The notes under the pieces were generated by a model, which searched no databases, had not been told where the DNA came from, and saw only the letters and a program-made list of their open reading frames with translations. A stretch of DNA of 44,615 nucleotides from Flavobacteriales bacterium. GTDB lineage: Bacteria > Bacteroidota > Bacteroidia > Flavobacteriales_D > Sanyastnellaceae. Positions 28,582-44,327 of the stretch are shown here, in pieces; positions within the stretch are counted from its first letter, which is position 1, and every line of letters begins with the position of its first letter. The stretch spans positions 1 through 44,615 of the forward strand of contig CANHSF010000003.1 in assembly GCA_947463065.1 (NCBI GenBank), given 5' to 3'. The translations under genes were made by a program, and so were the position numbers.

Positions 28582-31500
28582 ATGTTTTTTAGAAAACTCC
28601 ATACAATACTGATTCTAGGTCTGTTCATGAGCCATCAGGCCCAAGGCTTTGAAACTATAAAATTCGACAAAAAGTTACAGTGGTCGAATAGCGAAAATAC
28701 ATTTTCAACAACATTTGATGGTGCATATCTCGATGCGGATAACCAGGATATGCCTACCATATTGTGGCAAACCACTAAAAAAGGCCTCTTCAGAGCGGGC
28801 AATTATCGCATCACCCGTTTGACGCTAGAGCCCGTCAGCGCTCAAGAAGAGCGAATGCTGCAGCGGTACCGACCTTCCTCCGCCCCTATGGCGAGGTGCT
28901 CAGAAACCAATAAAAACACCATCGTCCAATTCCAATTCCCCGCCTTTCAATGGGTGGACAACCGCTGGCAAAGGGCAACCGAGGTGGAAATAGAGCTTGA
29001 TATTGAACCCGGTGCACCCGCTCGCAACCGAACTCTTACTTTCGCTCAAGAAAGTGCTTTGGCCTTTGGCGAGTGGTACAAAATCGCCATTGCCAAAGAC
29101 GGAATATACAAGGTGGATAAAAGCTTGTTGACCCAAATGGGCGTCTCCGACCCCAATCCGCAACGCATCAATATTTATGGCAACGGTGGCAACCTATTGC
29201 CCTCCAACAATGCCTTACCCCGACCCGATGATCTCCGCCGCTGCGCCGTAGGATTCGTTGGTAACAGCGATACAATCATGTCCAGCGACGAGTATTTTCT
29301 GTTTTACGGCGAGGGACCCGATACCTGGGCCATGGGAAATGACACCGAGTTGAACCGTCGCGTTTGGCAGCACATCAAACACTTCTATACCGACAGCGCC
29401 TATTACTTCATTCGGGTCGACGATATCGCAGCCGGCCGAATAGGCAACGCTCCATCCATCGATGCCCCTGCTGATCATGTGGTCAATAGCTTTCAAGACT
29501 TTCAATACCACGAACTTGATCTTTACAACCTCGTGGCCTCTGGTCGTGAATTTTACGGCGACGAATTCGGATCCAATGTGAACTCGTCTTTCAACTTTAG
29601 CTTTCCCAATATTGTCACCACAGCTCCTGCCGTCATCCAAGCGCGGGCAGCCATCCGCTCGGTCAATATTCAAAGTTCTTTCACCTTCGCGTCTAGCAAT
29701 AGCTCTGTGACTACTGCTCCAGCGTCTCATGCCGATGCCGCCACTTCACCCCGCGCTGTAACCCGCGAAGCTTCCTTGCTGATTACGCCGGTCAACTCCG
29801 CCATCAACGTGGCGGTCACCTACAACAAAGGCTATTCGGATGCTCAAGGGTGGTTGGATTATATCCGCGTCAATGCTACCCGTCAACTCACCATGACAGG
29901 CTCTCAAATGGTTTTTAGGGATTCGGCCTTTGCTGGAAGCGGACAAATTGGCGAATACCAATTGGCTAGTGCACAAAACGTCTGGCAAATTTGGGACATC
30001 ACGGATGTCAGCTTGCCACAAAAGGTGAATTTCAATACGTCCGGTTCCGTTGTCAGCTGGAAGGGATACAAAGATGCCGTGCGCGAATACATTGCCTTTG
30101 CCAATGGTGGATTCCTGACCCCCACTCCTATGGGTGCTGTCGAAAACCAAAACCTTCATGGCCTGAGCAATGTGGATTATCTAATCATTGCTGCACCCAA
30201 TCACCTAGAAGCCGCCAATATTTTGGCAGAAATCCACGCAGAAGAAGGACTCAACGTGGCTCTGGTCACGCAGCAACAAATATTCAACGAATTCAGCTCG
30301 GGTAACCCCGATGTGACCGCAATACGGATGCTTGTGAAAATGCTATACGACCGCGCAAATGGCGACGAATCACTGCGACCCAAAAATGTTTGTCTTTTTG
30401 GCGACGGCGATTATGCGCGCAACAAAGGTTGGAATGCTTTCTTGGGCAACAATGTCATCGTGTTCGAATCAGACCGAAGCGAAGCCCCATTGTCGAGTTA
30501 CGTGAGCGACGATTACTTCGTGTTTCTGAGTGACGATGACAATGCCTCTCCCGATAATTTCACCGACTGCGGAGTAGGACGAATTCCAGCCGAGACCACG
30601 AGCATGGGATTGGATTATGTGAGCAAAGTGCAAGCCTACTTATCGGAACAAACCAACGGATCGTCCGACGCAAGTTGTATCGGCGATGAGCAACAAAGTT
30701 CTTTTGGACCTTGGCGCAACAAGCTGATTTTTGTGGCCGATGACCAAGACGGCAGTTCGGGCCCCAGCGAGTTCTATCATACCACCCAAAGCAATCTTCT
30801 TAGTGATGTGACAGCCCAAAATCACCCGGAATACGATCTGATCAAAATTTTCATGGATGCCTATCAGCAGGAAAGCACACCGGGCGGAGAGCGCTACGAA
30901 GCCGTCGAAGATGAGTTGCGCAACCGCATTGAAGCTGGAAGTTTGATCGTGACATACATCGGCCATGGCGGTGAAAAAGGCTGGGCCCATGAGCGCATTC
31001 TAAACATCGAAACCATCAACAATTTCACCAACAAATACCGACTGCCCCTCTTCTTGACAGCCACTTGTGAGTTGGCCAAATTTGATGACAACTCACAAGA
31101 CACGGCAGGTGAAGAGCTGATCATGAACCCCAACGGCGGAGGAATTGCCGCCATGACCACCACCCGCATTGTATTTGTAAGCGACAACAATGAATTGAGT
31201 TCGGCCTTTTACGAATACGCCCTCGAAGACGACGATGCGGAGCTCACTTTCGGCAAAATCAATATGCTCACCAAGAATGGCGTATCGGCCTCCAACGACA
31301 GCAAGCCCAATTTCAGCTTGTTGGGTGATCCCGGTCTTCGGTTGCGCTATCCACAAGAAAATGTAGTCACCACCGCCATCAACGGCATTGCGATTGACGC
31401 TTTCAACGATACCATCAAGGCTTTGCAAGAAGTAACGGTTACCGGCATGATCACCAATCACAATGGCGAGAAATTGACCAATTTCAATGGCTTTGTTTAC

Positions 31501-32451
31501 CCCAACGTTTTTGACAAGCGCACCCGCGTAACCACACTGAACAACGATTCCGATCCCATCCAAGGTGGAGGTCAACTCTTGCAGTACAACACCTGGAACA
31601 AGATCATTTTCAGGGGAAAAGCCAGTGTGCAAAACGGTGATTTCACCTTCAAATTTGTGGTGCCTTACGACATCAACTACACCGTAGGCAATGGTCGCAT
31701 CAGCTATTATGCCGTGGCCAATCAAATGGACGCGCATGGTTCTGGCGAAGATTTTCAGATTGGCAGCATGTTGTCCAATGCCGAACTCAATACCGTAGGT
31801 CCCGAAATAATGCTATACATGAACGACACCACGTTTGTATCGGGTGGCCTCACCAACAATTCTCCGCTCTTGTTGGCCCTTTTGGCGGACGAAAACGGCA
31901 TCAATACAGTAGGAAATGGTATCGGCCATGATCTGACGGCCGTTATCGATGAAGACACGAGCAATCCATTGGTATTGAACGATTTTTATACCTCCGACAC
32001 CGATACCTACAAAAGCGGCGAAGTGCGCTATCCCTTGGATGGTTTGGCAGAAGGCGAGCACACCCTTACACTAAAAGCGTGGGATGTGCACAATAACAGC
32101 AGTAATTCCTCGTTGGAGTTCGTGGTAGCCGCAAGCTCAGAAATTGCCTTAGAACACGTACTGAACTATCCGAACCCCTTTACGACAAAGACATTTTTCA
32201 TGTTCGAACACAATCAAGCATGTGAAATGTTGGATGTCCGAATTCAAATCTTCACGGTCAGCGGAAAATTGGTAAAAACAATCGTCCAGCAAACCCAACA
32301 AGAGGGATTCCGCACAACTCCTATTGAGTGGGACGGTTTGGACGAATACGGCGACAAAATCGGTCGAGGTGTTTACATCTATAAGGTCGAAATTCGAAAC
32401 GAATTGGGCCAAAAGGCCGAACAATTCGAGAAGTTGGTTATTCTTAAATAG
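28582..32451 (+). CDS. porU: T9SS C-terminal signal peptidase (gingipain-like C25 fold)
   Basis: 1289 aa; C25 His/Cys motifs VTYIGHGGEKGWAHE and LFLTATCELAKFDD; C-terminal FlgD-like LNYPNPFTTKTFFMFEHN... Confidence 0.92.
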   Translation: MFFRKLHTILILGLFMSHQAQGFETIKFDKKLQWSNSENTFSTTFDGAYLDADNQDMPTILWQTTKKGLFRAGNYRITRLTLEPVSAQEERMLQRYRPSSAPMARCSETNKNTIVQFQFPAFQWVDNRWQRATEVEIELDIEPGAPARNRTLTFAQESALAFGEWYKIAIAKDGIYKVDKSLLTQMGVSDPNPQRINIYGNGGNLLPSNNALPRPDDLRRCAVGFVGNSDTIMSSDEYFLFYGEGPDTWAMGNDTELNRRVWQHIKHFYTDSAYYFIRVDDIAAGRIGNAPSIDAPADHVVNSFQDFQYHELDLYNLVASGREFYGDEFGSNVNSSFNFSFPNIVTTAPAVIQARAAIRSVNIQSSFTFASSNSSVTTAPASHADAATSPRAVTREASLLITPVNSAINVAVTYNKGYSDAQGWLDYIRVNATRQLTMTGSQMVFRDSAFAGSGQIGEYQLASAQNVWQIWDITDVSLPQKVNFNTSGSVVSWKGYKDAVREYIAFANGGFLTPTPMGAVENQNLHGLSNVDYLIIAAPNHLEAANILAEIHAEEGLNVALVTQQQIFNEFSSGNPDVTAIRMLVKMLYDRANGDESLRPKNVCLFGDGDYARNKGWNAFLGNNVIVFESDRSEAPLSSYVSDDYFVFLSDDDNASPDNFTDCGVGRIPAETTSMGLDYVSKVQAYLSEQTNGSSDASCIGDEQQSSFGPWRNKLIFVADDQDGSSGPSEFYHTTQSNLLSDVTAQNHPEYDLIKIFMDAYQQESTPGGERYEAVEDELRNRIEAGSLIVTYIGHGGEKGWAHERILNIETINNFTNKYRLPLFLTATCELAKFDDNSQDTAGEELIMNPNGGGIAAMTTTRIVFVSDNNELSSAFYEYALEDDDAELTFGKINMLTKNGVSASNDSKPNFSLLGDPGLRLRYPQENVVTTAINGIAIDAFNDTIKALQEVTVTGMITNHNGEKLTNFNGFVYPNVFDKRTRVTTLNNDSDPIQGGGQLLQYNTWNKIIFRGKASVQNGDFTFKFVVPYDINYTVGNGRISYYAVANQMDAHGSGEDFQIGSMLSNAELNTVGPEIMLYMNDTTFVSGGLTNNSPLLLALLADENGINTVGNGIGHDLTAVIDEDTSNPLVLNDFYTSDTDTYKSGEVRYPLDGLAEGEHTLTLKAWDVHNNSSNSSLEFVVAASSEIALEHVLNYPNPFTTKTFFMFEHNQACEMLDVRIQIFTVSGKLVKTIVQQTQQEGFRTTPIEWDGLDEYGDKIGRGVYIYKVEIRNELGQKAEQFEKLVILK

Positions 32452-32474
32452 AAACATTATTTACGCAGTCGCCG

Positions 32475-32482
32475 TATATTTG
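32475..32482 (+). promoter_or_regulatory. Candidate internal -7 element TATATTTG before porV
   Basis: Perfect TAnnTTTG 21 nt before the ATG; no clear -33 TTTG. Confidence 0.3.
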
Positions 32483-32503
32483 GCGCCCCTTATATTGAAT
32501 ATC

Positions 32504-33739
32504 ATGTTAAAAGCACGTTTTCCTTTTGTCGCCTTGCTTGTTGCTCTTGCTCCCGCATGTTTTGCGCAGCAACTCAATCAAAACGGCAAGGCCCAACAGG
32601 TCCAGCTCAACACCATCACTACGGCAGTGCCCTTCTTGCAAATCACTCCCGACTCTCGGGCCGGTGCTCTGGGTGATGCCAATGTTGCGCTCAGTCCTGA
32701 TGCCAACTCCCCATACAGCAATGCGGCCAAGTTGGCCTTTGTGGAAGAAGATATGGAAGTATCCCTGTCCTACTCCCCATGGTTGCGCGCTTTGGTCAAC
32801 GATATGAGCTTGGCTTATGTGAGCGGATACAAACGCCTATCCAAATTGCAAACCGTAGGGGTATCGCTTCGTTATTTCACCTTGGGCAATATTACCTTCA
32901 CCGATGAAGTAGGCACCGCAGTGCGCGATTTCAAACCCAATGAATTCTCGATCGATGGTTCGTTCGGTCAAAAATTCAGCGATAAACTTTCAGGGGGTAT
33001 TGCAATTCGTTTCGTGAACAGCAATCTCACTGGTGGCACGAATGTAGGTGGCGCAGAAAGCCGCCCCGGCCGTTCGCTTGCTGCTGACATCTCGGTGTTC
33101 TATACCAATGATAAAATCAAAATCGGTGGCAAAAAATCACGATTGAATTTGGGGGCCAATATCTCGAACATTGGAAACAAAATGCGCTATACCAACAGCG
33201 ATAAACGCGATTTCATCCCAACCAATCTGCGTTTGGGTACTGCGATCACTGCCAACTTCGACGACTACAATCAACTCACTTGGGCATTGGACTTCAACAA
33301 GCTCTTGGTCCCCACTCCGCCACGTTATTCACCTGACGGTGAAACCATCGTTGCCGGTATGAATCCCGATGTGGGTACCGCTGGAGGTATCATCCAAAGC
33401 TTCTACGACGCGCCAGGCGATGTGGACAACGAAGGCAACTTGGTAGCTGGATCAGTTCTCAGAGAAGAGCTCCGCGAGATCAACATCGGGTCTGGTTTCG
33501 AATACTGGTACGATCAGCAATTTGCTTTCCGCACCGGTTACTTCTTTGAACACTTCTCTAAAGGAAATCGCCAATTCATCACTTTGGGCGCAGGTTTGCG
33601 TTACCAGGTAATGACCATCGACATTTCGTATCTCATTTCTACCACACAACAAAACCCATTGGCCAATACCCTTCGCTTCAGCTTAAAGTTCGCTTTGGGC
33701 AAAGCCAGTGGCGATGCAGCCGAAGGGGAAGCCAAATAA
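32504..33739 (+). CDS. porV: T9SS outer membrane protein PorV (LptO)
   Basis: NTITTAVPFLQITPDSRAGALGDANVALSPDANSPYSNAAKLAF; immediately follows porU. Confidence 0.93.
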   Translation: MLKARFPFVALLVALAPACFAQQLNQNGKAQQVQLNTITTAVPFLQITPDSRAGALGDANVALSPDANSPYSNAAKLAFVEEDMEVSLSYSPWLRALVNDMSLAYVSGYKRLSKLQTVGVSLRYFTLGNITFTDEVGTAVRDFKPNEFSIDGSFGQKFSDKLSGGIAIRFVNSNLTGGTNVGGAESRPGRSLAADISVFYTNDKIKIGGKKSRLNLGANISNIGNKMRYTNSDKRDFIPTNLRLGTAITANFDDYNQLTWALDFNKLLVPTPPRYSPDGETIVAGMNPDVGTAGGIIQSFYDAPGDVDNEGNLVAGSVLREELREINIGSGFEYWYDQQFAFRTGYFFEHFSKGNRQFITLGAGLRYQVMTIDISYLISTTQQNPLANTLRFSLKFALGKASGDAAEGEAK

Positions 33740-34350: not shown

Positions 34351-34887
34351 TCAATTCGACAATCTGTAGAGCACTACCGACTGCAAAGAGCGCATAGGAA
34401 AGGAATAGACGATTGGAACGTCATCGGTACCTTGACCAGAAGTGCGTGCCGCTTCATTGCCAAAACTGAAGAAACGTACATTCATCTGATCGCCGTTCAC
34501 TTCAAACGCATCCACGATTCGGGTGCCCATTACTTCAAATGCACTTGAAAAGGTATTGCCGAAGAGATATTGATCGATCAGGATGCCGTTGTTTTCGTCT
34601 ACTACCCAATGACCGCTTTCAAGATCAACCGGTTTGAGGGTGTAGCCGCGGTTGTCGGCTTGATCGGCGCCATACACCAAATTCCAACTGTAATGCCCAA
34701 TGCTATCCAACGGTTCGATCACCAAGTGCATTTCGACAGTTTGAGAAGAATCGGGACCAATTTGCCAAATCAAATTGCCTTTCCAATGGCCCAACCAAGG
34801 CGCAATGCATTCTTCCGCTGTGGTTTTTTGAGCAAAAATCGGCAGTGCCCAAATAAGCAGGCCAATTGTCCATAACCTTCTTTTCAT
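34351..34887 (-). CDS. Small secreted protein of unknown function, possibly lipocalin-like
   Basis: Signal peptide MKRRLWTIGLLIWALPIFAQ; APWLGHWKGNLIWQIGPDSSQTVEMHLVIEP; start codon overlaps the glgB stop (TGATG). Confidence 0.68.
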   Translation of the reverse strand: MKRRLWTIGLLIWALPIFAQKTTAEECIAPWLGHWKGNLIWQIGPDSSQTVEMHLVIEPLDSIGHYSWNLVYGADQADNRGYTLKPVDLESGHWVVDENNGILIDQYLFGNTFSSAFEVMGTRIVDAFEVNGDQMNVRFFSFGNEAARTSGQGTDDVPIVYSFPMRSLQSVVLYRLSN

Positions 34888-36860
34888 CACAAGGTCAATC
34901 GTTTTTGTTTTTTCTCCAAAGGACATTGCAGCACCACAGCACCCAACGGAGGCAAGCTCAATGCCGCTGAGTAAGGCCTTCCTTGCCAAGCAATTTCATC
35001 CACATGAATCACCTCGTTGACTAGGCCGCTTCCGCCGTATCGTTGCGCATCGCTATTGAGTGTCTCCTGCCAATTGCCCGCACCGGGTAAACCGATGCGA
35101 TAATGTGGTCGGGGAACCGGCGTCAAATTTAAAATTACAACCACATCATCCGCTGTTCGATGGCCCCGACGAAGAAATACAAGAATGCATTGTTCATGGT
35201 CTGAATTATCAATCCATTCAAAACCGCTGGCCTGCATGCCGCGCTCATATAGCCCGGGCGATGAGGTGTACAAACGATTGAGGTCTTTTACAAAATTTTG
35301 AATGCCTGCATGCGGCGTATATTCCAGCAAGTGCCAATCTAAACTTTGTTGATGATTCCATTCTGCGGTTTGCGCAAACTCGCAGCCCATGAACAAAAGT
35401 TTCGCACCCGGATGCGTGTACATCCAACTGTACAACAAACGCAGGTTGGCCATGCGCTGCCAATCGTCTCCAGGCATTTTGTAGATCAACGCGTGTTTGC
35501 CGTGCACCACTTCATCGTGCGACAAAGGCAACATAAAATTCTCGGTAAAGGCATAGACCAATGAAAAGGTAATTTCATTTTGGTGAAACTTTCGGTAATA
35601 CGGGTCGCGCTCGAAATAACGCAAAGCATCGTTCATCCAACCCATCATCCACTTCATACCGAAACCCAAACCACCGGCATATGTGGGGTGCGAAACGCCG
35701 GGCCAGCTAGTACTTTCTTCCGCAATGGTATGTATCCCCGGAAAATGACTATACAACGCTTCATTCAGTTCTTTAAAAAATGACACCGAATCCAAATTCT
35801 CGCGACCGCCCAAATGATTGGGCACCCATTCACCAGCATTGCGGGAATAATCGAGGTACAACATGCTCGCCACAGCATCCACACGCAGTGCATCGACATG
35901 AAAAACATCCAACCAAAAAGCCGCGCTGCTTTTTAGAAAAGAACGAACCTCACCACGACCCAAATTAAAGATATATGTTTTCCAATCGGGATGATACCCC
36001 TTGCGCGGATCGGCATGCTCGTACAAATGTGTTCCATCGAACTGATACAAACCATGGGCATCTCCCGGAAAATGTGCAGGCACCCAATCCAAGATAACAC
36101 CGATTCCGACCTGATGAAAGCGGTCCACGAGGGCAGCAAAATCTTGAGCCGAACCAAAACGCGAACTCGGGGCAAAATACCCTGTGACCTGGTATCCCCA
36201 ACTGCCATCAAAAGGATGCTCCATTACAGGTAAAAACTCGATATGGGTGAATCCCATCTCGACCACATAGGGAATCAAACGGTCGGCTAGCTCATTGTAG
36301 CTCAGAAAACGATCAGGCTGAGCTGGATCGCGTTGCCAAGAAGCCAAATGCACCTCATAGACGCTGCATGGGGATTGGAGCAAATCGCTGGATGCTCTTT
36401 TCTTCAGCCACTTTGTATCCTTCCATTTGTGTTTCCATGCCCAAGTGATGGATGCCGTTTGTGGGCGCAGCTCCGCAAAAAATGCGAATGGATCGGCCTT
36501 TTCCAAGACTTCGCCCGACTCGGTATGGATGGCGAATTTGTAGGCTTCACCGCTACCCATGTTCGGGATAAATCCTTCCCATATCCCACTGCTGTCCCAA
36601 CGCACAAAAAGTTCGTGTTCTGCATGGGACCAATGATTGAAGTTGCCTATAACAGCAACCGAACGTGCATTCGGTGCCCAAACAGCGAAATAAGTGCCCT
36701 CAACACCTTTGTGCTTGATGGCATGGGCTCCAAAGAGCTTGTAAAGCGCAATATGGTCTCCATTGCGAAAAGCGGCGACATCCGCTTCGCTGAACAACGA
36801 ATGCGGAATAACCTTTTGACCTGCTCCTTTAGGAGATGAAACTGCCGTTTTTTTCGCCAT
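34887..36860 (-). CDS. glgB: 1,4-alpha-glucan branching enzyme
   Basis: CBM48 + GH13: SVAVIGNFNHWSHAEHELFVRWDSSGIWEGFIP, LPVMEHPFDGSWGYQVTGYFAPSSRFG, VDALRVDAVASMLYLDYSR, TIAEESTSWPGVS, LSHDEVVHGK. Confidence 0.95.
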   Translation of the reverse strand: MAKKTAVSSPKGAGQKVIPHSLFSEADVAAFRNGDHIALYKLFGAHAIKHKGVEGTYFAVWAPNARSVAVIGNFNHWSHAEHELFVRWDSSGIWEGFIPNMGSGEAYKFAIHTESGEVLEKADPFAFFAELRPQTASITWAWKHKWKDTKWLKKRASSDLLQSPCSVYEVHLASWQRDPAQPDRFLSYNELADRLIPYVVEMGFTHIEFLPVMEHPFDGSWGYQVTGYFAPSSRFGSAQDFAALVDRFHQVGIGVILDWVPAHFPGDAHGLYQFDGTHLYEHADPRKGYHPDWKTYIFNLGRGEVRSFLKSSAAFWLDVFHVDALRVDAVASMLYLDYSRNAGEWVPNHLGGRENLDSVSFFKELNEALYSHFPGIHTIAEESTSWPGVSHPTYAGGLGFGMKWMMGWMNDALRYFERDPYYRKFHQNEITFSLVYAFTENFMLPLSHDEVVHGKHALIYKMPGDDWQRMANLRLLYSWMYTHPGAKLLFMGCEFAQTAEWNHQQSLDWHLLEYTPHAGIQNFVKDLNRLYTSSPGLYERGMQASGFEWIDNSDHEQCILVFLRRGHRTADDVVVILNLTPVPRPHYRIGLPGAGNWQETLNSDAQRYGGSGLVNEVIHVDEIAWQGRPYSAALSLPPLGAVVLQCPLEKKQKRLTL

Positions 36861-36862
36861 GA

Positions 36863-38401
36863 TTATGATTCGTATTTTTCCAATTCGTTGATCACTTGAA
36901 GCACGCCTTTCAGAGGTATTTTCAACCAATCGGGTCTGCCGTTCAATTCGTAACCCACTTCATAAATTGCTTTTTCCAAGAGATGCAGCAAAAATAAGAA
37001 GTTCAACTCTGCTTTGCTGGCAAACAACTTTTGGTCCGGTCCCAATTCCTTCAGATAAGTCTCTGTATATGTTTCGCGTATCAAATAAAACCAACGATCT
37101 GCGGCTTTTTGCAACTTTTCGCGATCCATTTCGCTTGTCTCGGCACTAAAAAAGAGTTTCGCACTTACCGCATAATGGAATGAACGAATCATACCGGCTA
37201 CATCCTTCAATGGCGAATGTTTGATTTTGCGCTCAGCAATGGACGATTCCGGTTCTCCCTCAAAATCGATGATGACAAAATCGCCACCGGTGTACAGCAC
37301 CTGACCCAAATGAAAATCACCGTGAATGCGTGTGCGCAATGATTTCAACGGTACGCGCTGAATGCGTTCAAAAAATTTGAGAATAACCCCTCTGCGTGCG
37401 ATAAAAAACTCGGCCATGGATCGAGCTTCTTCATCTAAATGCGGCAAACTTCTTTTGAGCAATGCCATGCGGCCATCGATCAAGTCGCGCAGATGATGAA
37501 ACAACCACTGCCTGTATTCTGGACTAAATTTCTCCACCTTAAACTCCTTGTCGCGCGTGGCAATGGCCAAGGCCTTGTGCATCTCTGCTGTGCGTTTTGC
37601 CAACAATTCGACATGTTCAAAAACAAATTCATGGATCGAAAAACGGCCATCGATAAATGCATGCAAGAAGTCGTTCAGTTCATCGCCTGTGGTGGTCCAG
37701 TTGTCGCGCGTAGCCTCTATTTTGTACATCATCAACGCCAACGTCACAGGCAACGTACCCTTTCGCTCCCAAATTAAGCTACCCCGATAGGCAGGCACAT
37801 GCGAGTAATGCCCTTGTTCGGTCAACTGCTTTAACATCTCGACTTCTGGATTGGTCTCAAGAAACAACTTGCGATAAATTTTCATGAAGTATTTGTCATT
37901 GAAAAAAATCGAGCTATTGCTTTGATCCACCCCGGGATTACGCGAATTCAAATAGGTTTGTGAGGTATTGAGACCGATTCCGCAATCGAATTTCAATCGA
38001 CCGGGCGTAGTGGTCAATTGACGGTTGCCAATGATATGATCAAACATGGCGCGATGGAAACTCTGGCATGAAACAGCATCCACAATCACCTCTTGCTCAC
38101 TCCAATCGGCCAACACAACTGCATTTCCCACTTCAGAGCGCTTGACACAGGCCCAAGGAAAAAAGTAATACTCCAACGGGTGATCCACATAAGCCACTTC
38201 TATGATCACCAGCATGAAGAGTTGATCCTCGAATGGAAAATGAAGAACATGATCGTACATGACATGCTTCAGTTGATAGGCTTTGCCGCCAAACCAACGC
38301 GCTTGAACAATGTGCGGAGTCATACCGCTCAAGAGGAGGTTGACATGTTCCTTGTTGCGGTGCAATTCGGACCATGGCATGGCGTGTGCGTGAGGATTCA
38401 T
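36863..38401 (-). CDS. Maltokinase (Mak/Pep2-like phosphotransferase)
   Basis: LLSGMTPHIVQARWFGGKAYQLK; catalytic RIHGDFHLGQVLYTGGDFVIIDFEGEPESSIAERKIKHSPLKDVAGMIRSF. Confidence 0.9.
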   Translation of the reverse strand: MNPHAHAMPWSELHRNKEHVNLLLSGMTPHIVQARWFGGKAYQLKHVMYDHVLHFPFEDQLFMLVIIEVAYVDHPLEYYFFPWACVKRSEVGNAVVLADWSEQEVIVDAVSCQSFHRAMFDHIIGNRQLTTTPGRLKFDCGIGLNTSQTYLNSRNPGVDQSNSSIFFNDKYFMKIYRKLFLETNPEVEMLKQLTEQGHYSHVPAYRGSLIWERKGTLPVTLALMMYKIEATRDNWTTTGDELNDFLHAFIDGRFSIHEFVFEHVELLAKRTAEMHKALAIATRDKEFKVEKFSPEYRQWLFHHLRDLIDGRMALLKRSLPHLDEEARSMAEFFIARRGVILKFFERIQRVPLKSLRTRIHGDFHLGQVLYTGGDFVIIDFEGEPESSIAERKIKHSPLKDVAGMIRSFHYAVSAKLFFSAETSEMDREKLQKAADRWFYLIRETYTETYLKELGPDQKLFASKAELNFLFLLHLLEKAIYEVGYELNGRPDWLKIPLKGVLQVINELEKYES

Positions 38402-38428: not shown

Positions 38429-38447
38429 AAGTGTCAAATGTACACTA
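38429..38447. promoter_or_regulatory. Putative operator, copy 1: AAGTGT-CAAATGT-ACACTA
   Basis: 19-bp inverted repeat of 6-7-6 layout also found at 43036-43054; overlaps the mak -7 element. Confidence 0.5.
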
Positions 38448-38466
38448 AGCACCCCGTTGTTCCAAA
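38435..38466 (-). promoter_or_regulatory. Promoter of the maltokinase-glgB unit: TTTG-N20-TACATTTG
   Basis: Both elements match the Bacteroidota -33/-7 consensus with 20-nt spacing; 33 nt before the ATG. Confidence 0.65.
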
Positions 38467-38502
38467 TTTCATTACCGATTGATCCCCGCCTGTTCAACGG
38501 AT

Positions 38503-40482
38503 TTATTGCTCCAAACGAAACAAATGGAACGGCAATCGATAAGGATCCAACTCCACGTAATTGGCACTACCCTGCCAGCGGTAGGCTTCTCCGGTAATGA
38601 CATCGACCACCGAGAAGGAGCGCTCTTGGGACAACCCCATGGCGCTCAGTGGCAGGTGAATCATGGTTTGTTGCTTGTGATACGCATCCAAATTGACCAC
38701 TACGATCACACGGCTTTCGCCAGAGCATTTGGCCCAAGCCATGATGTGTTCGTTTTCGGTCGGCACCTCCAAATAGTTGTTGGTCGATTGCAGCGCAGCA
38801 TGTTCATTGCGCGCTGCATTGACCAAACGCATGACCTGCATCAGCTTGTTGCGTTTGTTCCAATCCCAATGGCGCACTTCGTACTTTTCGGAATCGAGGT
38901 ACTCTTCTTTGCCCGGAATTGCCGCATGTTCCATCAATTCGAAGCACGGCCCGAAAACCCCATAATTGCTGCTGAGGGTGGCTGACAAGACGAACCGAAT
39001 GATGTATTGCGGTTCGTGACCGGTTTGCAAAATATACGGATTGATATCGTGGGTATTGGGCCAAAAATTGGGGCGGAAATACTCGCGCATGGGGCTTTGC
39101 GTCAATTCGCGCATGTACTGCGTGAGTTCCGATTTGGTATTGCGCCAAGTGAAATAGGTATAACTTTGATGGTAACCCTTTTTGGCTAAATTTTCCATGA
39201 TGCGCGGACGCGTGAATGCTTCCGATAAAAAGATCACATCTGGATGTTGTTTTTCGATTTCCTCCAAACACCACTGCCAAAAAAGAAAACTTTTGGTGTG
39301 TGGATTGTCGACCCTAAAAATGCGAATGCCTTGCTGGATCCAGTATTCCAAAATACTTTTCAGTTCCAACCACATGGCTTTCCAATCGTCGCACTCGAAA
39401 TCCAAAGGCAACACATCTTGGTATTTCTTTGGCGGATTCTCGGCGTATTGCACTGTTCCGTCTGGACGCCATTTGAACCATTGCGGTTGGTCCTTGACAT
39501 AGGGATGATCGGGCGAACATTGAATGGCGAAATCCATGGCCAACTCCATGCCTGCCTCGCGGGTTTTCGCGATGAGCCGCTGAAAATCCTTGAGCGAGCC
39601 CAATTCCGGCAAGATCGCCTTGTGCCCGCCTTGGCCCAAACCTGTGGCATAGGGGCAACCGGGTTCGTCCGGCTGAACATTGAGGCTATTGTTTTTTCCC
39701 TTTCGAAAAGCTTTGCCAATGGGGTGAATGGGCGGAAAATAAACCACATCAAAACCCAATTCTTTGATGCGTGGAAGCAAGGCCTCGCAATCGCGGAATG
39801 AACCGTGTTCTCCCGCCTCTTGGGCAGCGCTGCGCGGAAAATACGAATACCATGCGCTAAAGCCTGCGCGTTTGCGGTGAGCCACCACCTCCAAAGCAGT
39901 TGGCCATTCGGTCACAAAATCGGCCAAAGGATAAGCGTCAAAAAATGCTTCCAATTCTTGACTGGCCGCCTTTTCATTGGCTTGATCGCCTTGCAACGCC
40001 TCTATCCATTGGTGTGCTTGTTTTGCGGCCTTTTTGTAGCGCACTGCTAAACTTTCCAAGAAAGAAGCTCCAATGGCACATTGCACATTAAGTTCATGTG
40101 CATCTGCCTCTTGCAAGCGTTTGCGAAAAGCATGAATCCATGTTTTCGGATGATCGATGTAAGCCTTTACCGTATAGATGTACTTGCCCACATTCTCCAA
40201 CGCATAGGACGCCATAAAACGATCATTGCCCAAGGGCGACATGATCAACACGTCCCATTTTTTTTGACCCGACGGACGAATGTGCACTTCCGCTCTGACC
40301 ATGTCGTGTCCGTCGGTGAACACGTCTGCTTCAATTTGCAAAAGATCCCCTTCTATTCTTTTAACGGGATACAGACCGCCTTCGACTTGAGGCGAAATGC
40401 CCTCAATGAAAACGCGGTTTTGACCGATGCGGCTATAGGAAGCAGCAATAGCTGTGGAAGAGGATGAGCGTTTGGTAGGCAT
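38503..40482 (-). CDS. glgE: Alpha-1,4-glucan:maltose-1-phosphate maltosyltransferase
   Basis: RVFIEGISPQVEGGLYPVKRIEGD, GIRIFRVDNPHTKSFLFWQWCLEEI, PDVIFLSEAFTRPRIMENLAKKGYHQSYTYFTWRNTKSEL, FWPNTHDINPY. Confidence 0.95.
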   Translation of the reverse strand: MPTKRSSSSTAIAASYSRIGQNRVFIEGISPQVEGGLYPVKRIEGDLLQIEADVFTDGHDMVRAEVHIRPSGQKKWDVLIMSPLGNDRFMASYALENVGKYIYTVKAYIDHPKTWIHAFRKRLQEADAHELNVQCAIGASFLESLAVRYKKAAKQAHQWIEALQGDQANEKAASQELEAFFDAYPLADFVTEWPTALEVVAHRKRAGFSAWYSYFPRSAAQEAGEHGSFRDCEALLPRIKELGFDVVYFPPIHPIGKAFRKGKNNSLNVQPDEPGCPYATGLGQGGHKAILPELGSLKDFQRLIAKTREAGMELAMDFAIQCSPDHPYVKDQPQWFKWRPDGTVQYAENPPKKYQDVLPLDFECDDWKAMWLELKSILEYWIQQGIRIFRVDNPHTKSFLFWQWCLEEIEKQHPDVIFLSEAFTRPRIMENLAKKGYHQSYTYFTWRNTKSELTQYMRELTQSPMREYFRPNFWPNTHDINPYILQTGHEPQYIIRFVLSATLSSNYGVFGPCFELMEHAAIPGKEEYLDSEKYEVRHWDWNKRNKLMQVMRLVNAARNEHAALQSTNNYLEVPTENEHIMAWAKCSGESRVIVVVNLDAYHKQQTMIHLPLSAMGLSQERSFSVVDVITGEAYRWQGSANYVELDPYRLPFHLFRLEQ

Positions 40483-40485
40483 GCT

Positions 40486-42882
40486 TTATTTGATGGTAAT
40501 CGTGTGAAAATGTTTGTCTACGGTAAACTTAATTTTACCCATGGCGCGGTTGCGTTCGCCGATTTTTTGTGGTTTGCCATCGATTTCGTAGTGCGTGGCT
40601 TTGAACGGTATACCGGTGACCACAAACTTATACTTTTCTGTGCGGTCTGCTGGAAAAGAGCCCATGGTGTTTTGCCAAATTTTGAATTGATTCTTTTGAC
40701 CACTCACTTCAAAGCGAACGAGCGTGCGTTGGCCCTTTTTATATCCCATGTTATCGCCATCGTCCATGTACATCCAACTGTTTTCGGATCCCTCTTTGAA
40801 ATAGACATGCAAGGTAATTTCACGCACCACTTTTTCACCAACGAATTGCATTTGCGGCCATGTGGGTATTACCGCCCCTTCGCGAATGAACAAAGGAATT
40901 TGCTTGATGGGTGTAGGCACCTCGACCTCTTGCGACCCTTTAAAAAAGTGATCGTCCCAATTGTGGTACCACCCGCCTTTGGGCAAATACACACGGCGAC
41001 TGTGCTGACCCGGCGAGGTCACAGGACACACCAACAGATGATCGCCCAACAAAAACTCCTCATTGCGCAGGTGGGTTTCCGCATCGTTTTGATCAGCAAA
41101 GACCAGCGGTCGGAGCATTGGTGTGCCGTACTTCATGTTTTGGTAAAACGTGGTATAGAGATAGGGCAGCAGGCGATAACGCATTTGAATGAATTTTTTA
41201 CAAATGGCTTCGTACGACGAACCGAAACTCCAAGGTTCTTGATCGAATCCTGTTTCGTTGCTGGCGCTATGGGTTCGCATGAAAGGATGAAATGCCGCCA
41301 ACTGTACCCATCGGGTATACAGCTCACCGTCCGGTTCTCCGATAAAACCGCCAACATCGCTGCCGGCAAAAGAAATGCCTGAGATGCTCAAGCGCTGGCA
41401 TTGTTGAGATGCGATGTGCAGATGTTGCCAAGTGGCGGTATTGTCGCCCGTCCATACGCTACTCCACTTTTGAATTCCGCTGTACGCGCTTCTGGTAATG
41501 ACAAATGGCCGTTTGGGCATCTGAAATTTTTTGAGTCCTTGCCACGTTGCTTTGGCCATCATGTGCCCGTAAATGTTGTGGGCTTTGCGGTGGCTGCAGG
41601 GATCACCATCGTAATCGTGTCGTACGTCCTCGGGAAAGGTTCCAATTTCGAAGACGGCCGGTTCATTCATATCGTTCCAAACTCCGGCTACACCGTTGTC
41701 TATCAAAACTCCAAACAAATTGCTCCACCATTCGCGCACACGAGCGCTGGTGAAGTCAGGAAAGACACATTTGCCTGGCCACACATCGCCTTCCATCAGC
41801 GCACCGTCCTGTCTTTTGCAAAACACATCGTTCTTGATGCCATCATTGTAAATCTCGTATTCGGGATCCACCTTGATACCGGGATCGATGATGACCACCG
41901 TTTTGAATCCAGCGTCATTCAGTGTTTGGGTCAATCCTTTGGGGTCGGGGAAATGGGATTTGCTAAAAGTGAAACAGCGGAAACCTTCCATGTAATCGAT
42001 GTCGAGGTACATGACATCGCAGGGGATGTTTCGTTTGCGAAATTCCATGGCGACTTCTTTGACCTTGGTGTCGGGGAAGTAACTCCAGCGGCATTGGTGG
42101 TAGCCCAGTGCCCAAAGCGGCGGCAATTCGGGCGTTCCGGTCAGCATGGCATATTGCTCTGCTACGTTCATTAGCTGTGGGCCGTAGATAAAATAATAAC
42201 ACATCTCGCCTCCCCTTGCCCAATAGCTGCTAACATCATCTCGCTCTTGACCAAAATCGAATATGGTGCGAAAGGTATTGTCGAAAAAAATGCCGTAAGC
42301 TGTGTTGTGATGCAATCCGTAGTAAAAGGGAATATTCTTGTACAAAGGATCGGTCTCTTCGCCGTAAGCGTAGGCATCTGTACCGAAATTCTCGAAGCGC
42401 TTTCCCCTCAATTGCAAGTTGGTCGGCTTATCCCCTAACCCATAAAAAACTTCTTGCTCTTGAATTTTTTTGCTGCAATAAACGATCTTGCCGCCTTTGG
42501 TGAGATAGTGTTGCCAATGGAAACCGGCCTCGTCTTGGTTGATGATGCGGCCTTGCAAATCGGTTATGGTTACCTTGAGATTTTCCTTATGAATAAAACA
42601 CTTGAGCTCTTTGGTAATGATTCCAATGTTCTCTCCATCGTCGAATGCGCTGAGCGAAACCAAACTCACCTGTATATCGGCATTGACAGCGTAGGAAAAA
42701 TCGCGATGAAACTTGCCGTCTGCTGCATAGCGGAATCGAAACAACTTGTCGGAGAGCACTTGCACTTCCAAAATTGTTTCAGAGGTGTAAAAAAGGAAAA
42801 AATTACCCTTTTGTTCCCAACGGCGGATTGCGTCGGGGAAATACTTTGCACTGTATTTATGATTGACTGCTGATACTTGCAT
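40486..42882 (-). CDS. GH31 family alpha-glucosidase
   Basis: PLWALGYHQCRWSYFPDTKVKEVAMEFRKRNIPCDVMYLDIDYMEGFRCFTFSKSHFPDPKGL, GVWNDMNEPAVFE, WTGDNTATWQHL. Confidence 0.93.
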   Translation of the reverse strand: MQVSAVNHKYSAKYFPDAIRRWEQKGNFFLFYTSETILEVQVLSDKLFRFRYAADGKFHRDFSYAVNADIQVSLVSLSAFDDGENIGIITKELKCFIHKENLKVTITDLQGRIINQDEAGFHWQHYLTKGGKIVYCSKKIQEQEVFYGLGDKPTNLQLRGKRFENFGTDAYAYGEETDPLYKNIPFYYGLHHNTAYGIFFDNTFRTIFDFGQERDDVSSYWARGGEMCYYFIYGPQLMNVAEQYAMLTGTPELPPLWALGYHQCRWSYFPDTKVKEVAMEFRKRNIPCDVMYLDIDYMEGFRCFTFSKSHFPDPKGLTQTLNDAGFKTVVIIDPGIKVDPEYEIYNDGIKNDVFCKRQDGALMEGDVWPGKCVFPDFTSARVREWWSNLFGVLIDNGVAGVWNDMNEPAVFEIGTFPEDVRHDYDGDPCSHRKAHNIYGHMMAKATWQGLKKFQMPKRPFVITRSAYSGIQKWSSVWTGDNTATWQHLHIASQQCQRLSISGISFAGSDVGGFIGEPDGELYTRWVQLAAFHPFMRTHSASNETGFDQEPWSFGSSYEAICKKFIQMRYRLLPYLYTTFYQNMKYGTPMLRPLVFADQNDAETHLRNEEFLLGDHLLVCPVTSPGQHSRRVYLPKGGWYHNWDDHFFKGSQEVEVPTPIKQIPLFIREGAVIPTWPQMQFVGEKVVREITLHVYFKEGSENSWMYMDDGDNMGYKKGQRTLVRFEVSGQKNQFKIWQNTMGSFPADRTEKYKFVVTGIPFKATHYEIDGKPQKIGERNRAMGKIKFTVDKHFHTITIK

Positions 42883-43035
42883 GCCTATGGTCCAGATGAA
42901 AATTTCGGTTGTTCAGGATAAAATTAGCGCAGCCCAACCTGTGCATACTGCTTCACTTCGAAATTCTTTGAACAGCATTCCCTCCAGGTCAGGATCAGGG
43001 CACAAACTTTATCCAATTGGTTGGCAATTTAATGA

Positions 43036-43054
43036 AAGTGTACCAAATACACTT
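43036..43054. promoter_or_regulatory. Putative operator, copy 2: AAGTGT-ACCAAAT-ACACTT
   Basis: Perfect 7-bp arms (AAGTGTA/TACACTT) with 5-nt centre in the divergent GH31 / GT87-like intergenic region. Confidence 0.5.
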
Positions 43055-43130: not shown

Positions 43131-44327
43131 ATGACTATCGCTTATTTCGAACGCTTTGCAAAGGCCATTGCATATCGGCATTTGGCAATTCTTTTGCTGC
43201 TGTTGGCGGGTGTGGCTACTGCACAGGCTATTCTCACCAGTCATCCAGTTCCGCCTTATCCCATTACCAATTACAACAACTACGTCATTTTTAAGCAGAG
43301 TTTTTATCATCTCTTGAATGGACAGGATCTCTATGCCAAATACAAATACGAATACTGGGATCTTTACAAGTACAGTCCAACCTTTGCGGTTTTGATGGCC
43401 CCCATGGCATCATTGCCCGATGCCTTGGGTTTGTTGTTGTGGAACCTGTTGAATGTCGCTCCCATATTGTGGGGACTCCATGCACTGAAAAGCATTGGTG
43501 ACCGTGTCCGAATGTTCACCTTGCTTTATATCGCTTTAGAACTTTTTACTCAACTGCAAAATGAACAAAGCAATGGATTGCTATTGGGCTTGGTCCTTAT
43601 GGGGTTCGCTTTGGCAGAGCAACAAAAAATGTTTTGGTCAGTGCTGTGCATTTGCCTTTGTGCCTACATCAAAGTGCTCGGTTTGGCTGCCTTTGCTATG
43701 TACTTGTTCTACCCAAAGGTTTGGCGCAGCGCGCTGTATGGAATTTTCTGGATGGTATTGCTGGGTGCATTGCCACTGCTTTGCGTGTCTTTTGATGTGT
43801 TGTGGAATATGTATGGCAAATGGCTGCTGTTGTTGCAGAAAGACCACAATGGCCCTCCGGGTTTATCGGTGATGACCCTTTTGAATCACGTCTTCCATTG
43901 GTATCCCGAGAAATGGCAAGTGCAGCTGTATTCCATTGTTGTATTCTGCATTCCGCTTGTTCTTGTGCGCAGATATTCAACACCTCTTTATCGGACCTAC
44001 GTGGTATGCTCCGCATTGATTTGGATGGTCATTTTCAATCACAAAGCCGAGTCACCCACCTTCATATTGGCTGCGGCTGGTGTTGGCCTGTGGTATTTTA
44101 TACGACCCGATGTCACTGCGCTGCATCGCATAGTTTTTGTGTGTGCATGGGTGATGACACAGTTATCGTCGACCGATTTGTTTCCCGAACATTGGCAAAC
44201 GGGCCTATTTACCTACTATGCATTCAAAGCCATTCCCTGCGTAGTGGTTTGGTTGATGATTCAATGGGATTTTTGGCAGCCTTTTATGCTTTCGCCCCGA
44301 GAATACGACGGATCTCTGAAAGTTTAA
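43131..44327 (+). CDS. DUF2029/GT87-like polytopic membrane protein
   Basis: YNNYVIFKQSFYHLLNGQDLYAKYKYEYWDLYKYSPTFAVLMAPMASLPDALGLLLWNLLNV; many TM segments. Confidence 0.78.
   Translation: MTIAYFERFAKAIAYRHLAILLLLLAGVATAQAILTSHPVPPYPITNYNNYVIFKQSFYHLLNGQDLYAKYKYEYWDLYKYSPTFAVLMAPMASLPDALGLLLWNLLNVAPILWGLHALKSIGDRVRMFTLLYIALELFTQLQNEQSNGLLLGLVLMGFALAEQQKMFWSVLCICLCAYIKVLGLAAFAMYLFYPKVWRSALYGIFWMVLLGALPLLCVSFDVLWNMYGKWLLLLQKDHNGPPGLSVMTLLNHVFHWYPEKWQVQLYSIVVFCIPLVLVRRYSTPLYRTYVVCSALIWMVIFNHKAESPTFILAAAGVGLWYFIRPDVTALHRIVFVCAWVMTQLSSTDLFPEHWQTGLFTYYAFKAIPCVVVWLMIQWDFWQPFMLSPREYDGSLKV

Follow-up and report, generated by a model that had tools for sequence, protein, structure and literature searches.

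A predicted pfkA-linked NrtR-family repressor and its putative operators at alpha-glucan and central carbon metabolism genes of Bacteroidota

Introduction

In other phyla, central carbon metabolism is governed by regulators such as Cra/FruR, HexR and CggR, which are LacI-, RpiR- and SorC/DeoR-type proteins, respectively, and are unrelated to the Nudix-type regulators. To our knowledge, the regulation of glycolysis and glycogen metabolism has been little described in Flavobacteriales and Sphingobacteriales. The characterised members of the NrtR family, which combine a Nudix-like domain with a winged helix, are repressors freed from DNA by their ligand (PMC4666351). The described protein closest to the subject of this report is BtAraR (BT0354), the arabinose repressor of Bacteroides thetaiotaomicron, which in EMSA binds oligonucleotides containing AAGTGTAAAAAAGACACTT, GAGTGTATTTGATACACCA and AAGTGTTACTTTTACACCC and is freed by its sugar (PMC4666351). 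In the solved BtAraR–DNA complex, recognition-helix residues 178–184 contact the GTGT half-site.

Here we analyse two inverted repeats in a GlgE/GH31 gene cluster of a Flavobacteriales genome; the window denotes the whole stretch of 44,615 nucleotides that contains them. We posit that these repeats are very probably operators of an NrtR-family repressor, encoded elsewhere in the genome next to pfkA, that would act over alpha-glucan use and central carbon metabolism. While the family, the fold and the operator type are already known, our search of the available papers on NrtR with phosphofructokinase or glycolysis in the Bacteroidetes found no published description of a pfkA-linked branch controlling alpha-glucan and central carbon metabolism.

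Two inverted repeats in the GlgE/GH31 cluster

The cluster and its repeats comprise the following features:

34887..36929, minus strand: GlgB, the glycogen branching enzyme, encoded farther downstream in the cluster (Pfam CBM48, GH13 and GlgB_N)
36863..38401, minus strand: maltokinase, predicted target of copy 1 (APH domain; NCBIfam TIGR02457 'putative maltokinase' at 361 bits, cut-off 375)
38429..38447, no strand assigned: predicted operator copy 1, AAGTGTCAAATGTACACTA, 27 bp upstream of the maltokinase ATG and over the predicted -7 element
38442-38435, minus strand: predicted -7 element of the maltokinase promoter, TACATTTG, inside copy 1, with TTTG 20 bp upstream as the -33 element
38503..40482, minus strand: GlgE, alpha-1,4-glucan:maltose-1-phosphate maltosyltransferase (Pfam GlgE_dom_N_S and GLGE_C)
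40486..42882, minus strand: GH31 alpha-glucosidase, which copy 2 likely controls (Pfam GH31; nearest NCBIfam model alpha-glucosidase MalA, under its cut-off)
43036..43054, no strand assigned: predicted operator copy 2, AAGTGTACCAAATACACTT, a perfect 7-5-7 palindrome
43131..44327, plus strand: GT87-type membrane protein (Pfam GT87)

Copy 1 sits in the 101-bp gap from the glgE stop (38503) to the maltokinase ATG (38401, minus strand), and copy 2 between the divergent start codons of GH31 (42882, minus) and GT87 (43131, plus), 153 bp upstream of the former and 76 bp upstream of the latter. A pattern search of the window with AAGTGTN7ACACTW bore out the preliminary description, which had placed the repeats at these positions as non-coding and had spotted no further copies by eye: it returned the two repeats and no third match. 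The same pattern, which was picked after the fact, has no occurrence in shuffled windows. The overlap claimed for copy 1 with the maltokinase -7 element likewise holds, as TACATTTG within it is a perfect instance of TAnnTTTG, the flavobacterial sigma-A -7 consensus (PMC9723704). Around copy 2, neither direction shows a clear -33/-7 pair.

The preliminary description had also pointed to the identical half-sites and 6-7-6 layout of the pair. The window contains 13 pairs of 6-7-6 inverted repeats whose arms are as alike as these, as against a mean of 8.7 and a maximum of 18 in shuffled windows. Judged from the window alone, the pair is thus within chance and not significant, and the reality of the motif rests on the genome-wide and comparative evidence. 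An improved consensus is (A/T)AGTGTA-N5-TACACT(T/A). The window has no regulator gene beside the cluster, as the preliminary description had it; the candidate regulator is encoded in trans, on contig C226.

Elsewhere in the window (28582-33739), the gene for a secreted protein of large size is paired with one for an outer-membrane protein resembling PorV, next to ispF; judged by eye, these are apparently type IX secretion components.

Sites across the source genome

The source genome (3.06 Mb in 283 contigs, 87% complete) was covered by pattern searches and by stretches around the matches. At up to two mismatches, AAGTGTANNNNNTACACTT has 19 matches, 13 of which are intergenic and start-proximal; five lie within genes, each with two mismatches, as background would give, and the remaining one is C2:47464. 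The closest matches are thus not spread through coding DNA, and the two window sites belong to an operator set that is larger than had been claimed, with 13 sites genome-wide. Outside the window, the sites and the genes they precede are:

C226, one site: pfkA-gapdh and, divergently, the Nudix gene
C28, one site: a small gene, then pyruvate kinase
C37, one site: MFS sugar transporter behind a class II aldolase
C244, one site: pyruvate dehydrogenase (PDH) E1 alpha
C145, one site: GH65 protein of the maltose phosphorylase type
C111, two sites: SusC-type receptor; secreted GH13 amylase
C220, one site: amylase lipoprotein, its gene cut by the contig end and named from orthologs
C66, one site: CBM20/48 starch-binding secreted protein
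C198, one site: secreted L-type lectin
C13 (L023:6491-7327), one site with one mismatch, 32 bp upstream: ComA-type (phosphosulfolactate synthase) gene

The ComA-type gene is the odd member of the proposed regulon. Each of the eight exact instances of GTGTAN5TACAC in the genome falls in a gap close to the start of an alpha-glucan or glycolysis gene, and five variant sites are similar. A control pattern for this 10-base core also has eight genome matches, so that at core stringency the sites are not enriched in number and it is their position and the function of the adjoining genes that carry the argument. When all 14 bases are used and at most one mismatch is allowed, there are six sites as against no control matches.

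A candidate regulator divergent from pfkA

The gene on C226 that is divergent from pfkA-gapdh codes for a 239-aa protein with a C-terminal winged-helix domain (PF21906 NrtR_WHD, 92.6 bits, cut-off 27), an AraR_C domain and an N-terminal Nudix-like domain (PF00293, 23.9 bits, cut-off 21.1) whose Nudix box is impaired, reading RVLxELTxL instead of REUxEExGU. Its best match in the PDB is BtAraR, both by sequence (2.7e-41) and, using the AlphaFold model of a 63% identical homolog (pLDDT 88.7), by fold (2.4e-22), with AraR and NrtR as the top PDB matches of the fold search. Going by its winged helix, impaired Nudix box and predicted fold alike, the protein is a member of the NrtR family. Two narrower assignments were rejected: that to the NAD-type NrtR, for which NCBIfam NF050029 gives 99.6 bits against a cut-off of 400, and that to the AraR orthologous group, as only one of the three arabinose contacts is kept and the linkage, in most loci, is to pfkA rather than to arabinose genes.

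The recognition helix, DKRNFRK, is identical to BtAraR residues 178–184, while the wing is less well kept, with His in place of Lys204 and Lys in place of Arg205. On the DNA side, copy 2 is near-identical to the BtAraR-bound GAGTGTATTTGATACACCA, and the BtAraR-bound sites depart from our consensus by one difference in the BT0365 operator and by three in each of the two BT0356 sites, mostly at outer bases. Among the arabinose contacts, only His131 is kept; Arg34 is replaced by Gln, and Arg86 aligns with a Glu beside a 15-residue insert. Hence, the effector of the regulator is probably other than arabinose.

Orthologs with 49–87% identity are found in most relatives, and the named organisms with the pfkA-regulator arrangement include Schleiferiaceae and many Pedobacter isolates. 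The spacers between the two genes contain the site, counted at up to two mismatches or as an exact GTGTAN5TACAC, in 49 of 56 loci, where shuffled spacers would give about 0.1; these loci include duplicates (e.g., L061/L104 and L049/L176) and related species and are therefore not independent, and several of the misses are spacers shortened by over-long ORF calls. Pedobacter glucosidilyticus has sites both at pfkA and upstream of pyk.

Several further observations concern the family. Just upstream of the regulator ATG in the source genome (L026:2452-2500) there is a degenerate second site, GAGTGTCAAATGTACGCAA, that resembles copy 1, and in the relatives G011 and G030, too, the regulator start has an additional weak site nearby. 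The cyanobacterium Leptolyngbya sp. PCC 7375 (L237) encodes a regulator of 45% identity, preceded by TTGTGTACTTTTTACACTA, which may have arrived by horizontal transfer. In Marinifilum, Geofilum and Saccharicrinis (L205:3974-8666, L210 and L216), a related branch of the regulator stands before an MFS transporter and a GH94 phosphorylase, with the domains checked in L205; the palindrome is of the GTGTA type in the first two and a variant in Saccharicrinis. This branch raises the question of what prevents cross-talk between paralogs that share a helix.

Conservation and predicted regulon in relatives

Out of 40 relatives searched, three, of different genera, have the GH31 and maltokinase genes together, and in each the orthologous intergenic region at the operon head contains the site. 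The operon GH31-glgE-mk-glgB is preceded by a perfect palindrome 50 bp upstream of GH31 in G011 and 47 bp upstream in G019, while G012, with the order glgE-mk-glgB-GH31, has AAGTGTCAAGTGTACACTA, near-identical to copy 1, 89 bp upstream of glgE. Rearrangement has thus left the site at the operon head. No counterpart of copy 1 was found inside the G011 and G019 operons. The GT87 gene was rejected as a conserved target of copy 2, as unrelated genes occupy that side in G011 and G019. That the window pair is a functionless coincidence, for which the expectation of such pairs in the window alone might speak, is scarcely credible in the face of operon heads that conserve the site in orthologs and a genome-wide target list that is coherent.

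Across the relatives with sites that were examined (G001, G011, G012, G015, G016, G018, G019, G020, G033 and G034), sites precede genes of glycolysis and pyruvate dehydrogenase (pfkA, PGI, PDH E1 alpha and PDH E1 beta), the ortholog of the small gene before pyruvate kinase, and genes for ATP-type PEPCK, monomeric isocitrate dehydrogenase, glutamate dehydrogenase and ETF, as well as amylase lipoproteins, L-type lectins, CBM20/48 proteins and MFS transporters. Several kinds of target recur from one genus to another, among them the PDH, MFS, starch-binding, lectin and amylase lipoprotein genes seen in the source genome. The PEPCK, isocitrate dehydrogenase and glutamate dehydrogenase targets are not obviously explained by a simple sugar-catabolism repressor.

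Genomes with the regulator have a mean of 4.2 sites at up to one mismatch as compared to 0.7 in those without it (Mann-Whitney p=2e-5), whereas with a reversed control pattern the two sets are alike (p=0.55). In G003, G010 and G029 the regulator is present, yet there are few or no near-consensus sites. The sites across the genome, their conservation in three genera and a candidate of the right family, with the right helix and a site upstream of its own gene, together support the earlier proposal that the repeats are operators for a regulator acting in trans.

A paralog as an internal control

The source genome encodes a second NrtR-type paralog (contig C82, L114:4321-5073), a 42–46% identical homolog with the recognition helix DKGNFRK. 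Its upstream motif, TATTGTATTTGTTACAATT (L114:5109-5127), lies in the spacer to a secreted CBM20/48-type starch-binding protein. TTGTAN5TACAA is found in front of the gene in eight of ten DKGNFRK loci tested, and this pairing of helix and motif recurs in relatives. As helix and half-site change together, the DKRNFRK protein is indicated as the reader of the window sites.

Its presence in the same genome, its degree of identity and its adjacency to a starch-binding protein gene might commend the paralog, rather than the pfkA-linked protein, as the binder of the window sites. We rejected this candidate on its helix and motif and regard it as very unlikely; moreover, G007 and G026, whose only homologs are at the paralog level (46–47% identical), have zero and one near-consensus sites, respectively. 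A still smaller probability attaches to an unrelated regulator of the TetR, GntR, LacI or Crp type that reads a similar palindrome: many families bind palindromes of such size and the cluster in the window has no adjoining regulator gene, but against it speak that operator and helix specifically match those of the solved BtAraR system, that nearly every pfkA-regulator spacer contains the site, and that helix residue and half-site covary from one paralog to the other.

The two Nudix-type paralogs of one cell, set apart by the intercalating arginine of the recognition helix and, in their operators, by a matching base, offer a natural specificity experiment.

Proposed mode of regulation

The sites, the membership of the regulon, the conservation in relatives and the association of sites with the regulator gene, by linkage and by co-occurrence, are computed results; from these and the published work on BtAraR we infer binding by the pfkA-linked protein, repression and the effector. 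In the proposed mechanism, an NrtR/AraR-type factor, consisting of a Nudix-like sensor and a winged helix-turn-helix, would act in trans on both repeats, its dimer reading GTGT on each half-site via the DKRNFRK helix. Located at or beside the -7/-33 elements, it would most likely repress, sterically, the maltokinase gene, GH31-glgE and a broader regulon of alpha-glucan and glycolysis genes, and would be released when its non-catalytic Nudix domain binds a sugar or sugar-phosphate. Steric repression is the best-supported mode because copy 1 lies over the -7 element, TAnnTTTG is enriched just downstream of the sites (10 as against 2.5 expected), and family members are ligand-released repressors.

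The pfkA-linked factor might instead activate from the same sites, or both activate and repress, as Cra does on gluconeogenic and glycolytic genes. The PEPCK, TCA or anaplerotic genes among the targets in relatives would suit such a role, as would the position of the site relative to the -7 element, which varies and is often just upstream. We consider this unlikely given the precedent of the characterised family members, which are repressors released by ligand (PMC4666351), and the coverage of the -7 element itself by copy 1.

In many Bacteroidota, the same switch appears to govern the metabolism of starch and maltose along with central sugar metabolism. Only tentatively do we suggest that the pfkA-linked regulator might be a global central-carbon controller in several Bacteroidota orders, doing the job of Cra, HexR and CggR by means of an unrelated protein and sensing a hexose or hexose-phosphate via a Nudix pocket altered by the conserved KDQxWL insert. 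To this same tentative reading belongs the idea that a single helix residue, the Arg/Gly at BtAraR position 180, might set GTGT versus TTGT operators and thereby separate the paralogs. In any event, the analysis gives a concrete candidate regulator, an operator and a predicted target list that spans uptake, starch breakdown, the GlgE glycogen pathway, phosphofructokinase, pyruvate kinase and pyruvate dehydrogenase, and the regulon is amenable to test in cultured Pedobacter.

Comparison with known systems

BtAraR is similar to the pfkA-linked regulator in its Nudix-like and winged-helix domains and its impaired Nudix box (PMC4666351). The two also have in common the identical recognition helix, the AAGTGT-N7-ACACTT operator type, and loci in trans that take in SusC/D and glycosidases. 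They differ in that the regulator is 42% identical, has the 15-residue insert (GDPxRVxxLKDQxWLRxFR region) in its Nudix domain, and is linked to pfkA, alpha-glucan and glycolysis genes rather than to ara genes. BtXylR (BT0791), a predicted xylose regulator here compared by its published description, shares the NrtR family, the phylum and a role in sugar metabolism, but its predicted regulon is that of xylose (PMC3878776). NrtR of Shewanella oneidensis (PDB 3gz5 and 3gz6) shares the fold and domain order, while its targets are NAD synthesis genes and its ligand is ADP-ribose. SusR, the starch regulator of Bacteroides, likewise governs starch and maltose use in Bacteroidota; however, it is a different kind of protein, namely a membrane-bound activator with direct-repeat sites (PMC3878776). 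Finally, if the predicted regulon is right, the likeness to Cra/FruR, HexR and CggR would be one of role, with glycolytic genes coupled to a sugar signal.
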